IMG/VR virus record: IMGVR_UViG_3300043411_000826
Location: 1-42,878 of that record
Strand: one strand, 5' to 3'
Length of the DNA stretch: 42,878 nt
From: a virus
Below the pieces are notes generated by a model. That model searched no databases and was not told the DNA's origin. It saw nothing but the letters and a program-made list of their open reading frames with translations. This document shows positions 5,223-16,548 of the stretch, piece after piece. A program made the translations under genes and the position numbers. Within the stretch, counting starts at the first letter, position 1, and each line of letters begins with the position of its first letter.

Positions 5223-5435
5223 TTAGTTGGGATTGACCAGTCCGAGAAATTGCTTGCTTCGTGTCAGCGCGACATATCGCAGATTGCGTTCCTGCTGGTG
5301 CTGCCAGGCGGACTTTTTGCCATTGTTCGATTCGCGTTCAAGCAGCCACACCCGTGAAGCCTCCAGGCCCTTGGCGCGCGGGGCGTCCTGGGCTGCCTCT
5401 TTCTTTTCACGAGTGCACCTCACAAACCCCGCCAT
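5223..5435 (-). CDS. stand-alone UvrD-helicase C-terminal motif V/VI fragment
   Basis: The ~70-aa product contains RAKGLEASRVWLL followed by QERNLRYVALTRSK. These correspond to motif V (KGLEA...V) and motif VI (ERNLxYVALTRAK) of superfamily 1 helicases, which lie in the C-terminal RecA domain. Motifs I-IV, including the Walker A loop, are absent, so it cannot hydrolyse ATP alone. It is either the remnant of a UvrD/Rep-like helicase or a small regulatory protein made of this segment. The start is uncertain: ATG 5435 lacks a good SD, and a GTG slightly downstream is possible. It overlaps the end of the sigma-factor gene in another frame. Confidence 0.55.
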   Translation of the reverse strand: MAGFVRCTREKKEAAQDAPRAKGLEASRVWLLERESNNGKKSAWQHQQERNLRYVALTRSKQFLGLVNPN

Positions 5436-5991
5436 CGCGGGCCAATCGAAGACGTCGCCTGAGCCGATCAAGGGCATCCCTCTTGACCTGACCCACCCTG
5501 GACCGGCTCAGGCCCAGTGATGCCCCGATCTCGCCCATTGACTCGCCACCGAGGAAATGCCGCTCGACAACCTCCCGCTCCCTTGTGCCGAGAAATCGCA
5601 TCGCACTGCGGATGCTTGCGATATCGTCCGATTCCAATTCCGGCGTTGGCTCGTCCCGTGAAACCAATTCTTCAGGAATGTATTCCTTGCCGTTGTGAAC
5701 GCGAACAAGAGGCTCCGGAATGTTGCGATCCTTGCCACGCTGACAGGCCTGGCTCAATTTGCGGAAGATTACCTTTGCGACGTATGTCGTCGGAGAAAAA
5801 CCAAGCTCGTCTCTGTACCCTCGTGCAGCGTAAATCAACGCCTCCTGGGCCAGGCTGAACGCCTCGTCCGGACCCAGGATTCGGATGGCCCACACATGCC
5901 GTTTGGTCGCCCACTTGGCGAGCGACGAGTAGGTCGCAGCAAACTCCCGCTGCTCGTCAGTCAGCGGTGTCAGATTGCAGTTGCCGTTCAA
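5407..5991 (-). CDS. phage RNA polymerase sigma-70-type factor
   Basis: The protein (194 aa from the TTG) has region 2-like sequence (DEAFSLAQEALIYAARGYRDELGFSPTTYV) and a C-terminal region 4 helix-turn-helix (LGTREREVVERHFLGGESMGEIGASLGLSRSRVGQV). It lacks regions 1.1 and 3, like many ECF and phage sigma factors. It probably directs host polymerase to a class of phage promoters. The start is a TTG at 5991: AAGGAGG lies 7 nt upstream and the TTG overlaps the stop of the 53-codon gene before it (TTGA), giving tight coupling. Longer in-frame starts would overlap that gene. Which promoters it reads cannot be told from this window. Confidence 0.85.
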   Translation of the reverse strand: MNGNCNLTPLTDEQREFAATYSSLAKWATKRHVWAIRILGPDEAFSLAQEALIYAARGYRDELGFSPTTYVAKVIFRKLSQACQRGKDRNIPEPLVRVHNGKEYIPEELVSRDEPTPELESDDIASIRSAMRFLGTREREVVERHFLGGESMGEIGASLGLSRSRVGQVKRDALDRLRRRLRLARDGGVCEVHS

Positions 5992-6149
5992 CTCCTTACC
6001 TCCTTCGGTGCCTGAAACTCCCTGAGCATCTCGATAGTGCCGGGCAGGAATCGAACCCGCCAACCGCCAATCAGCCAGTCGCCGGGCCGTTCCTCGGCCG
6101 GGAATTTCTTGAGTGACGCTGGCGGCACCGGGTGTTCTGATCCTGTCAT
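5988..6149 (-). CDS. small coupled ORF, 53 aa, between methyltransferase and sigma factor
   Basis: An ATG at 6149 overlaps the methyltransferase stop (ATGA), and the frame ends in a TGA overlapping the sigma-factor TTG start. The 53-aa product (MTGSEHPVPPASLKKFPAEE...) contains GDWLIGGWRVRFLPGTIEM and ends EFQAPKEVRS. Perfect coupling at both ends argues strongly that it is translated. The family is unknown; the W/G-rich core may be a small beta fold. The same DNA shows a tRNA-like T-loop and a 7-bp acceptor-like pairing (6036-6129), but no convincing D- or anticodon arm. Confidence 0.65.
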   Translation of the reverse strand: MTGSEHPVPPASLKKFPAEERPGDWLIGGWRVRFLPGTIEMLREFQAPKEVRS

Positions 6150-9120: not shown

Positions 9121-9525
9121 CTACTTGTGCCCTTCATCGGAGGGCACAAGTCTAATCCCATTGCGTTTGTGCGTTTCGATTAGCCCATCGTCGCGAAGTA
9201 GGCGGACCATCCTTTTCCAATGGCCACTTGCGCTGTCGGCATCGCCGCCCACCTGGCCGGCGACCTCAGACGCCACCATCCAGAGGCCCTCGGCCTCGGT
9301 CAGCACCTGGAGGATCTCCTCGGCGAGCGGTGGCAGGTTGGCCTTTCGAGGTCTTGACAGGGCCGCCAGCCATGCCGTTACGGCTGACGATCGCCAGCGT
9401 CGGACGCCATCGTGAAGGATGACGGGGGCGGGAAAATCGCCCCTGGCGAGCCACTCCCTGAGCGTGGCCCGTGTGACGGCCAGCAGGCGAGCGACGGCGC
9501 GGAGAGTCAGCAGGCGGTCCAGCAT
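9121..9525 (-). CDS. AlpA-like DNA-binding protein with C-terminal winged helix
   Basis: The N-terminal ~55 of 134 residues (LLTLRAVARLLAVTRATLREWL, then FPAPVILHDGVRRWRSSAVTAWLA) match the AlpA/excisionase helix-turn-helix fold. Residues ~65-130 (LAEEILQVLTEAEGLWMVASEVAGQV, RMVRLLRDDGLIETHK) resemble a second winged helix of replication or repressor type. Two DNA-binding domains in one short protein suggest a transcriptional regulator or origin/attachment-site binder. It is the first gene of its transcription block after a short gap. A 10-bp hairpin overlaps its last codons. Confidence 0.75.
   Translation of the reverse strand: MLDRLLTLRAVARLLAVTRATLREWLARGDFPAPVILHDGVRRWRSSAVTAWLAALSRPRKANLPPLAEEILQVLTEAEGLWMVASEVAGQVGGDADSASGHWKRMVRLLRDDGLIETHKRNGIRLVPSDEGHK
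9124..9150. terminator. 10-bp hairpin at the end of the AlpA-like gene
   Basis: CTTGTGCCCT and AGGGCACAAG form a perfect 10-bp stem around a 7-nt loop, directly against the stop codon of the AlpA-like gene. On the minus strand a TTTTT run follows about 14 nt later, so this could be an intrinsic terminator or attenuator before the excisionase-like gene. The T-run distance is longer than usual. Confidence 0.45.
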
Positions 9526-11797: not shown

Positions 11798-12009
11798 GCC
11801 AACTACAAGATAGCCGTTTCTGTCCGCACTGCGAACGTCGTGTGCGGGCAGTTGCCAATCCGATCGACGGTAAATTTCACGCTGCGATGTGTCTGCTTAC
11901 CTGCGGCCTTTACTTCCTGATCGTGGTCCCTGTGATGTTCGTTCAGGCCATGATCGGCCCCACATATCGCTGTGTCGATTGTGGGGCCGTTTGCCGACGT
12001 AGGATGTGA
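11794..12009 (+). CDS. membrane-anchored zinc-ribbon (LITAF-like) small protein
   Basis: The 71-aa protein has CPHC near residue 10, a hydrophobic segment MCLLTCGLYFLIVVPVMFV, then CVDCGAVC near the C-terminus. Two CxxC knuckles flanking one membrane-embedded helix resemble the LITAF-like zinc-binding fold, in which the knuckles form one site at the membrane surface. It starts at a GTG overlapping the stop of the upstream gene (GTGA). Possible roles include superinfection exclusion or envelope change; function not established. Confidence 0.6.
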   Translation: MSQLQDSRFCPHCERRVRAVANPIDGKFHAAMCLLTCGLYFLIVVPVMFVQAMIGPTYRCVDCGAVCRRRM

Positions 12010-12118
12010 TCACCCCAGCATTCTACGGCGTTTTGTGGTCGGAGAGGGGTAGCACGGTAGGTAGGTCGCTGGTCCCCAGGGTACCAGTTGCATAAGAATA
12101 GGCGTCTGGACATGAAAC
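12010..12118. other. non-coding gap before the palindrome
   Basis: I see no supported gene. The stretch has a short imperfect inverted repeat (CTGGT/ACCAG) and leads into the palindrome and tRNA fragment, so it may be part of an attachment-site region. Confidence 0.4.
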
Positions 12119-12151
12119 GACGCAAGCCTAGGATATACCTAGGCTTGCGTC
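12119..12151. other. 14-bp perfect palindrome (hairpin) beside the tRNA fragment
   Basis: GACGCAAGCCTAGG and its exact complement flank a 5-nt ATATA loop. It lies immediately beyond the 3' end of the tRNA-Pro fragment, where a tRNA terminator would be expected. No T-run follows on either strand, so it could instead be a recombination-protein site. If the att core was taken from the host it may include this hairpin. Confidence 0.6.
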
Positions 12152-12153
12152 TA

Positions 12154-12202
12154 TCGGGCTGACAGGATTCGAACCTGCGACCTCTTGAACCCCATTCAAG
12201 AG
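12154..12202 (-). other. 3' part of tRNA-Pro(GGG): probable attachment-site core
   Basis: On the minus strand an anticodon arm (CTTGA, loop ATGGGGT with anticodon GGG, TCAAG), variable bases, a perfect T-arm (GCAGG, TTCGAAT, CCTGT), the acceptor 3' strand CAGCCCG and discriminator A are all canonical. The expected 5' partner CGGGCTG and any D-arm are missing upstream. A tRNA truncated from the anticodon stem to the 3' end is the classic core carried by phages that integrate into tRNA genes with tyrosine recombinases. Phage-like genes lie on both sides, so this looks like attP rather than a prophage edge. It is the remnant alone; no integrase was found in the window. Confidence 0.65.
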
Positions 12203-12239
12203 AATCAAGACTGGAACACGCATTGTGGTCCGAGTCATG

Positions 12240-13151
12240 CCCGAACTGGAGGCAGCCACTTCGGCTATCTTTCAGTGGTGTACGACCCGCTCGGCGTCAG
12301 ACGCTGAACGGGTTGTACATTCCCTTCCCAAGGAGGCTGCCGCTGGCTGGCGGCTTCTTGTGGAAACCAAGGGCGGCGGCGTCGGAGCCTACCTGGTCTG
12401 TGCCAGGTGGCCAACGCCGTTAGGAATCCGCGAAGAGCGGATCATACTTTACAACAGAAGGCTGGAACGAGCTCCCCCTTACCAGGGGGAGGCATCGGAA
12501 AGCCAACTGGACGGCTGTCGTACGTATGACAGCCGCGTGGGGCAGCTGGAGCAAGGATTGCTCCAGTTCCTCGTTCCGGAGTGGGACGCCTTGTTGGCGT
12601 GTCCATTCGTGTGGAGTTATCGTCGCACAGTGCTGTGTGCGGCGGTCACCGCCCTTTTGGGGAGGGAGTAGTTGAGTTTGGCTTTAACACCCCTCTTCGG
12701 AGGGGTTCCTGTCTGCGGTTGATTCTCACCGCACCGATGAGCCCCGGTAGGGCGAAACAGGAGAAGTCCGTGAAACAGGCAATCAAGTGGATTAGTCGGA
12801 CCATGAAGGACCGGCGGTTCGAGTCGTCGGTAGTTCGTCGATTTCGCCGCCTCCTCTCGCTGATCGAACGAGGAGTTTTGGTTCCGGTGGCACAGAGCCA
12901 CCGGGAGATCGCGGGTAATGGAGTAGTGTTCGTCGAAAGACGAACAGGTGCGAAGTGGGCGTGCACCCACGCAGGTTTGCTCGACAGTATGAAGCACGGC
13001 CTGTGGGATGTCTTACTGCCCTATACCGGGCCAAAGACACCCCTCAAGGGTCCGTCCATGAGACGGGAGCGGGAAATGCCCCGGGAGCCGCGTGAGCGGT
13101 ATACCCCGATCAACTAACCCAGGAAAGCTCGCCTCCGAGCTTCCCTGGGTT
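12240..13151 (+). ncRNA. large multi-hairpin structured RNA (GOLLD/ROOL-like or novel)
   Basis: About 900 nt fold into some twenty consecutive local hairpins. Perfect 8-bp stems lie at 12472-12491, 12512-12535, 12546-12566 and 12884-12904. Further stems are 12280-12318 (10 bp with one G-U), 12426-12442, 12689-12706 (7 bp, UUCG loop), 12928-12945 (7 bp, GAAA loop), 13052-13066, 13088-13099 (GUGA loop), and a terminal 16-pair stem with one mismatch at 13116-13151. UUCG and GNRA loops read correctly only on the plus strand, which sets the orientation. A tRNA-like sequence follows 1 nt later. Giant phage RNAs such as GOLLD and ROOL are of similar size and lie near tRNA genes. I cannot align it to either, so it may be new. 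Two overlapping reading frames here look incidental. Confidence 0.72.
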
Positions 13152-13152
13152 G

Positions 13153-13223
13153 CCCCTTGATTAGGTTTACACCTTGTAGGTGTGAAGCGAAATGGTTACT
13201 CGGTTCGAATCCGAGCAGGGGGA
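13153..13223 (+). tRNA. tRNA-Thr(TGT)-like gene lacking a D-arm
   Basis: CCCCTTG pairs with CAGGGGG (one G-U) as acceptor. TACAC/GTGTG (one terminal wobble pair) encloses a 7-nt loop CTTGTAG with U33 and anticodon TGT. CTCGG/CCGAG encloses TTCGAAT as a perfect T-arm; discriminator A, no encoded CCA. Between acceptor and anticodon stem there are only 8 nt (ATTAGGTT), so no D-stem can form, and the variable region is 14 nt. It starts 1 nt after the terminal hairpin of the structured RNA. It may be a degenerate tRNA, an unusual D-armless tRNA or a tRNA-like 3' domain of that RNA. Confidence 0.5.
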
Positions 13224-13290
13224 ATTGCTCAGGCCAGATCGCCAGCACTTCGCTGTACGACAAACGCCTGGGCTAGTTCGGAGAAAAGCA

Positions 13291-13602
13291 ATGAACACGA
13301 TCATCAGTATCTTTCTTGGCTGCGTCGTCGTCCGAACGGCTGCCGAAGTCACGACCGCGACGGCAAACGCGGTAGGTCACGCCTGCCGTGGCGATTTTAA
13401 GACGGCGGCTGAAATAGCCGTCGGCATCCCGGCACTGCCGGTGACGACGGCCGTGTCCGCGACAGCAGTCGCCATGGCCACGCTGATGTCCGCTGTAAAC
13501 GCGGCACATGCTGCGTGCCAAAGGAACGAATCCAATCACTTCTACAGTAACACTTTACGCCGATTTTCACAAATGCGAAGAATCGGAAAAATCGCACGCT
13601 AA
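13291..13602 (+). CDS. small Ala-rich membrane protein, 103 aa
   Basis: The protein begins MNTIISIFLGCVVVRTAAE and has a second hydrophobic stretch around IAVGIPALPVTTAVSATAVAMATLM, so two membrane segments are possible, followed by a basic C-terminal tail (RRFSQMRRIGKIAR). GGAG lies 7 nt before the ATG at 13291. It sits alone between the tRNA-like gene and the repressor, facing the latter. A holin or exclusion protein is possible, but nothing specific shows it. Confidence 0.5.
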   Translation: MNTIISIFLGCVVVRTAAEVTTATANAVGHACRGDFKTAAEIAVGIPALPVTTAVSATAVAMATLMSAVNAAHAACQRNESNHFYSNTLRRFSQMRRIGKIAR

Positions 13603-15970: not shown

Positions 15971-16251
15971 GCAACACCGAAAAACTGCTGCGATGGCTTC
16001 ACCAGCCAGACGAACTCCCGGTGTACATAGAGGATCGGCAGGACGCCGCCGCCATCCTCGCCGACGCCATCGAGGAAGAGGGCGTCAGCCCGACCAGGGT
16101 GTCGGGCATGGGCGACCGTGAAAGGCTGTCCCCAGAGCAAGCCGCCGAGGTGGTGCGGGGGAGGATCTTGTCAGTTACCCCCGACGAGACAGCCATCACG
16201 GTTGACTACCTGGAAGACAGTCGCAACTGGAGACTGGTTTTCCAGTTCTAA
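15967..16251 (+). CDS. hypothetical protein, 94 aa
   Basis: The 94-aa protein (MSNTEKLLRWLHQPDELPVY...) has an N-terminal helical half and a C-terminal beta-like half (GRILSVTPDETAITVDYLE, NWRLVFQF). It is translationally coupled to the 58-aa gene by ATGA and has GAAGGAG upstream. A 13-bp hairpin follows its stop. Function unknown. Confidence 0.6.
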   Translation: MSNTEKLLRWLHQPDELPVYIEDRQDAAAILADAIEEEGVSPTRVSGMGDRERLSPEQAAEVVRGRILSVTPDETAITVDYLEDSRNWRLVFQF

Positions 16252-16263
16252 AACCGGAACTTC

Positions 16264-16296
16264 GCCGCTCGCCACCTCCTAACGGTGGCGAGCGGC
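16264..16296 (+). other. 13-bp perfect intergenic hairpin
   Basis: GCCGCTCGCCACC and its exact complement flank a 7-nt loop (TCCTAAC). It separates the 94-aa and 76-aa genes and has no T-run, so it is more likely an RNA-processing or stability element than a terminator. It occupies the position that the tRNA-top-half elements take upstream. Confidence 0.6.
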
Positions 16297-16317
16297 ACAA
16301 CGAGGAGGATTGAGACG

Positions 16318-16548
16318 ATGTGGATTCTCGACCTGTATTGCTGTGTCGCAGCGAACGAATGCGACGTGTTCGTTTTCGAGAGTTGCGGAAACCTCGAAGG
16401 CGATGGGGCGATCGCCTCGAATTGGCAGTGTCGCGGAGCGTTTGACACCCGCGAAGAAGCCGAGGCGGAAGGCGAACGGCTGATCGCTGAACTGAAGGCT
16501 GAAAAGATGCGACGAGTGCGAGGCCATCCGTACTCGTCCCGGTTCTGA
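16318..16548 (+). CDS. small hypothetical protein, 76 aa
   Basis: Last gene of the plus-strand operon. MWILDLYCCVAANECDVFVF and FDTREEAEAEGERLIAELKAEK suggest a beta-strand pair followed by one long helix, a fold seen in many small phage proteins with a DTREEAEAxxxxL helix. GAGGAGG precedes the ATG at 16318. The operon terminator begins 10 nt after its stop codon. Function unknown. Confidence 0.62.
   Translation: MWILDLYCCVAANECDVFVFESCGNLEGDGAIASNWQCRGAFDTREEAEAEGERLIAELKAEKMRRVRGHPYSSRF

Follow-up and report, generated by a model that had tools for sequence, protein, structure and literature searches.

An apparently undescribed, strongly folded phage RNA that looks able to cut itself in two at a hammerhead-type motif

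Does the dense series of hairpins at positions 12240-13151 of an uncultured virus genome belong to a large structured RNA, or to the message of two small protein genes? To our knowledge, only a few giant RNAs have been described from phages, among them GOLLD and ROOL, and little has been established about what they do or about the roles of phage hammerheads. The DNA analysed is a linear record of IMG/VR with 42,878 bases, referred to as the window, and all positions are those of the window. The locus looks like a phage RNA not described before, which would cleave itself into two parts.

The window harbours genes of a tailed phage, including primase/helicase, helicase, methyltransferases, portal, capsid-protease, terminase, tape measure and repressor. 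The best match of the portal protein in the phage collection was about 30% identical, and its relatives in viral contigs showed about 54-67% identity. The head and tail module is common to the examined portal relatives, and the 12240-13151 region is absent from them. The window also encodes a sigma-factor-like protein (5407-6063) and an excisionase-like HTH protein (9121-9525), both on the minus strand. A tyrosine integrase was not found within the record.

Five perfect Watson-Crick hairpins with a stem of at least 8 bp and a loop of 3-8 nt were found in 12240-13151 (Table 1). The sequence-only reading had counted four such stems; the hairpins are real, and the number is corrected to five. Hairpins with a stem of at least 6 bp amounted to eleven. 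The expected numbers were 0.12 and 1.37, respectively, with maxima of 2 and 6 in 300 dinucleotide shuffles, which bears out the earlier estimate that fewer than one 8-bp stem would arise by chance. The UUCG, GAAA and GUGA loops described previously were present as well, and their correct reading is on the plus strand.

The minimum-energy fold of 12221-13150 (930 nt) reached -468.8 kcal/mol, with z-scores of -9.7 on the plus strand and -9.3 on the minus strand, the exact values of which are rough because 20 shuffles were used for each strand. Sliding z-scores of 200 nt placed the most structured part of the record at roughly 11800-13200. Compared with 16,641 windows of other loci, 12240-13151 was the strongest outlier, and no 900-nt window with an equal number of hairpins of at least 8 bp was found in 2.7 Mb of other loci. 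The most hairpin-rich among these loci had fold z-scores of merely -0.7 to -5.6, compared with -13 for the studied region (10 shuffles each), and were therefore rejected as comparable structures. The RNase P RNA from a genome of the putative host order, used as yardstick, had a z-score of -3.4. The candidate new phage RNA (12237-12713), with a z-score of -9.55, is folded more strongly than this control, and the part after the ribozyme had a z-score of -5.64. A second strongly folded stretch is located on the plus strand at 16101-16401, where the 200-nt windows had z-scores of about -5 to -6.

Table 1. Coordinates of the features in and around the structured region of the window.
Feature	Position	Strand	Remarks
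Perfect hairpin	12119-12151		14 bp; adjoins tRNA-Pro 3' end; terminator-like on minus strand
attP-like copy	12152-12200	-	3' half of tRNA-Pro(GGG)
Densely structured segment before predicted cut	12237-12713	+	read as non-coding RNA; overlaps ORF1 (12237-12671)
Hairpin, at least 8 bp	12472-12491
Hairpin, at least 8 bp	12512-12535
Hairpin, at least 8 bp	12546-12566
UUCG-tetraloop hairpin	12689-12706	+	directly 5' of ribozyme
Type III hammerhead variant (U4C), predicted	12706-12763	+	RF00008; predicted cut between 12713 and 12714
AGGAG Shine-Dalgarno	12759-12763	+	inside stem III; 6 nt before GTG
ORF2	12770-13117	+	115 codons; strongly folded (z -4.1)
Hairpin, at least 8 bp	12884-12904
GAAA-loop hairpin, at least 8 bp	12927-12946	+
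GUGA-loop hairpin	near 13093	+
Long hairpin after ORF2	13115-13152	+
tRNA-like element	13153-13222	+	acceptor-like 7-bp stem CCCCUUG/CAGGGGG; canonical T arm; differs from a normal tRNA

The search with Rfam at relaxed thresholds gave a single convincing family, Hammerhead_3 (RF00008), with an E-value of 4e-8 and a score of 44.5 bits, which is below the Rfam gathering score of 48.5. This match is too strong for chance. Stem III (UUCCUGU/ACAGGAG), stem I, stem II, the GUC before the cut and the GAAA are in place, and the Rfam alignment together with the fold gave a three-stem junction with stem III open toward the flanks. The hammerhead fold also arises unprompted when the whole region is folded to minimum energy. 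The core reads CCGAUGA compared with the consensus CUGAUGA, with one base changed (U4 to C). A viroid hammerhead with the same U4C change is reported to cleave weakly in vitro but sufficiently in vivo (PMC3088659), and because of this core and this precedent the element is named a hammerhead variant. From its sequence, we predict a probable self-cleaving motif of the hammerhead type. Hammerheads are known from prophages and phages, and one of them precedes a halovirus start codon by 13 nt (PMC3088659). A second Rfam ribozyme was not found on either strand. The sequence-only reading did not describe the hammerhead, which we count as the main functional element of the locus.

The strong structure on either side of the ribozyme could also belong to one large functional RNA (12237-13222, about 1 kb), similar to GOLLD or ROOL and including ORF2, with the hammerhead as a processing site within it or as a degenerate motif without activity. 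The phage location and the tRNA-like element at the 3' end agree with such an RNA, and the U4C change lowers activity (PMC3088659). We regard it as rather unlikely, given a ribozyme that is well formed except for one base and matched beyond chance, some coding signal in ORF2 and the absence of a GOLLD or ROOL match. A resemblance to these families had been proposed from the sequence, and the locus shares with them the phage origin, a length near 1 kb, dense structure and tRNA sequences nearby. Nevertheless, the Rfam covariance models of GOLLD (RF01998), ROOL and other giant RNAs matched neither in sequence nor in structure at E<=10, so that the locus is not recognisable as GOLLD or ROOL. The accounts of GOLLD and ROOL in PMC12286853 and PMC6582537 describe no hammerhead as part of either RNA.

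Searches for DNA homologues in the phage collection, 213 Chthoniobacterales genomes and 50 records of viruses whose portal is related yielded only tRNA matches or matches of chance length. The same 50 records contained no convincing hammerhead, and a query with the neighbouring gene had no match in viral contigs. A homologue of the studied region was not found in the collections searched, and one sequence is known.

Two long plus-strand frames, ORF1 and ORF2, meet around the hammerhead, and the p-value of their combined open length is about 0.005. They could represent two small protein genes of an operon and the hammerhead an mRNA-processing element between them, a position in which other phage hammerheads are found. 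The strong structure would then belong to the mRNA and serve translation control or stability, comparable to the coding RNAs of ssRNA phages. The amino-acid composition of both frames lies above that of shuffles (2.8 sd for ORF1 and 2.3 sd for ORF2). However, ORF1 showed no three-base periodicity (chi-square 8.2, shuffle p = 0.21) and ranked below all real gene segments of equal length (48 of 48), and the genes at 13291 and 14049 were clearly periodic. Its codon use is neutral, a Shine-Dalgarno sequence was not found, the structure model from the single sequence was poor, and protein relatives were not detected in the collections searched. ORF1 thus shows neither the codon periodicity nor, in the collections searched, the conserved relatives expected of a protein gene. 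Against synonymous shuffles the structure of ORF1 had a z-score of -9.0, compared with 0.9 and 1.6 sd for two control gene segments. Since ORF1 lacks codon periodicity, the segment 12237-12713 is read as non-coding. Two candidate relatives of ORF1 (in loci L002 and L262) were rejected as chance matches; the stretch aligned in L262 reads across stop codons and lies antisense to a different open frame.

ORF2 is ambiguous and probably, not certainly, a small gene. It possesses the AGGAG sequence at a distance of 6 nt and a weak periodicity (p = 0.02), and AlphaFold2 gave a pLDDT of 72 with a core above 80, for a single-sequence model with no shuffled or out-of-frame control. Nonetheless, the periodicity is below that of 89% of real gene segments, the GC content by codon position is odd, and protein relatives were not found in the collections searched. 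Foldseek with the ORF2 model gave no significant match. Of the coding alternative raised in the sequence-only reading, the ORF1 half is argued against and the ORF2 half keeps this weak signal; a pair of protein genes is judged unlikely. The large structured RNA proposed there is backed by the fold statistics and the missing coding signal of ORF1 for at least 12237-12713.

The reading that we favour, with about even chances, is a self-cleaving operon segment that releases a large structured phage RNA. It builds on the strong fold, the ribozyme match, the layout and the lack of a coding signal in ORF1. Transcription of an early-type phage operon on the plus strand would pass through the attP region, and the transcript of the upstream segment would form a densely folded non-coding RNA. 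The type III variant at the 3' end of this segment would cut at the predicted site, and the upstream RNA would acquire a defined end with a 2',3'-cyclic phosphate. The second RNA would carry a 5'-OH, begin with the remainder of the ribozyme and contain the Shine-Dalgarno sequence and ORF2, followed by the hairpin and the tRNA-like element. The presumed product is a stable, compact structured 5' RNA released from the ORF2 mRNA. Promoter-like matches for the interval were weak only. More tentatively, the locus may represent a novel class of large non-coding RNAs in phages, folded more strongly than RNase P RNA, whose built-in hammerhead overlies the ribosome-binding site of the following gene and would mature the 3' end of the RNA. 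The absence of a homologue from the collections searched, the weakness of the promoter-like matches, the sub-gathering score, the U4C core, the composition of ORF1, the two long frames and the lack of a comparable leader at five other hammerhead loci count against the self-cleaving reading.

A switch that frees the ribosome-binding site through cleavage is not claimed. The predicted accessibility of this site rose after cleavage from 0.25-0.31 to 0.53 in this record, but the opening energy was hardly altered and the effect was inconsistent across the five other hammerhead loci, so that the accessibility calculation gave no consistent support.

A viroid-like circular RNA of the Obelisk type, captured in the phage genome as a DNA copy, is highly improbable and was rejected. 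The length of about 1 kb, the self-complementarity, the type III hammerhead and the small open frames agree with it. However, the linear and circular folds are branched (24-33 hairpin loops) and not rod-like, the region has no direct repeat of at least 11 nt, and Rfam gave no further ribozyme on the plus or minus strand.

The tRNA fragment noticed earlier beside the structured region is present, and its identity could be refined to the 3' half of tRNA-Pro(GGG), on the minus strand and attP-like. Its 49 nt show 0 mismatches to the tRNA-Pro gene of one Chthoniobacter flavus MAG (Verrucomicrobiota), and a 47-nt pattern derived from it had no further exact match among 84,980 genomes. This match is most simply read as an attP site of a phage whose host belongs to the Verrucomicrobiota, although a tyrosine integrase is missing from the record. 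Integration would restore the tRNA-Pro gene and set the 14-bp hairpin right after it, where the hairpin may serve as terminator. In the putative host (locus L083, 3132-3360), the 3' end of the tRNA-Pro gene occurs once more about 140 nt beyond the gene, an arrangement that resembles a used integration site. The tRNA-like gene proposed on the other side fared less well: ARAGORN called a tRNA-Thr at 13141-13224 with a mispaired acceptor stem, and the Rfam tRNA model did not report it at E<=10, so the tRNA-Thr is doubtful. The tRNA-like element at 13153-13222 (Table 1) represents a better fold of this stretch. Neither Rfam nor ARAGORN detected an intact tRNA gene adjoining the structured region.

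A pattern built for hammerheads with CGAAACAGGAG at their end matched 56 loci in viral contigs. Most correspond to chance or repeated coding matches, and eight are hammerheads by inspection, including five of type III (L216, L221, L227, L246 and L250) and three of type I (L209, L220 and L252). In all five type III loci the AGGAG overlaps stem III and is followed by an ATG after 5-8 nt; only the ATG is independent evidence, because AGGAG was part of the search pattern. Similar to the studied locus, where the spacing to the start codon is 6 nt, they possess the stem III core CCUGU/ACAGG. In contrast, they have the consensus U4, other stems I and II, and unrelated genes. A comparably structured leader was present in none of the five. 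Therefore, hammerheads are repeatedly placed at gene starts, and so far only the studied locus has a giant structured neighbour. The type I hammerheads lie within short intergenic gaps of phages.

Three of the type III loci, L216 (883-1436), L221 (2389-3382) and L250 (6505-7219), contain paired hammerheads in the same direction, the second located 0.55-1.0 kb downstream and again immediately before a gene. The pairs flank 554, 994 and 715 nt, respectively, with two or three small open frames. A double cut in these loci would free a linear RNA, which an RtcB-type ligase could circularise.

Type III hammerheads (RF00008) of phages and prophages share with the studied element the three stems, the GUC, the GAAA and the position just before a start codon. 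They differ from it in the U4C core, the sub-gathering score and the very large structured RNA directly upstream, which are features of the studied locus. The HHphage hammerhead of haloviruses HF1 and HF2, in the phage early region, likewise precedes a start codon by a few nt; it differs by its helicase gene and a core insertion, where the studied locus has ORF2 and a preceding large structured RNA (PMC3088659).

The recurrent layout with AGGAG in stem III suggests that hammerheads are used at phage gene starts. An extremely structured phage RNA beside a hammerhead would join the problem of the giant RNAs with that of the phage hammerheads.
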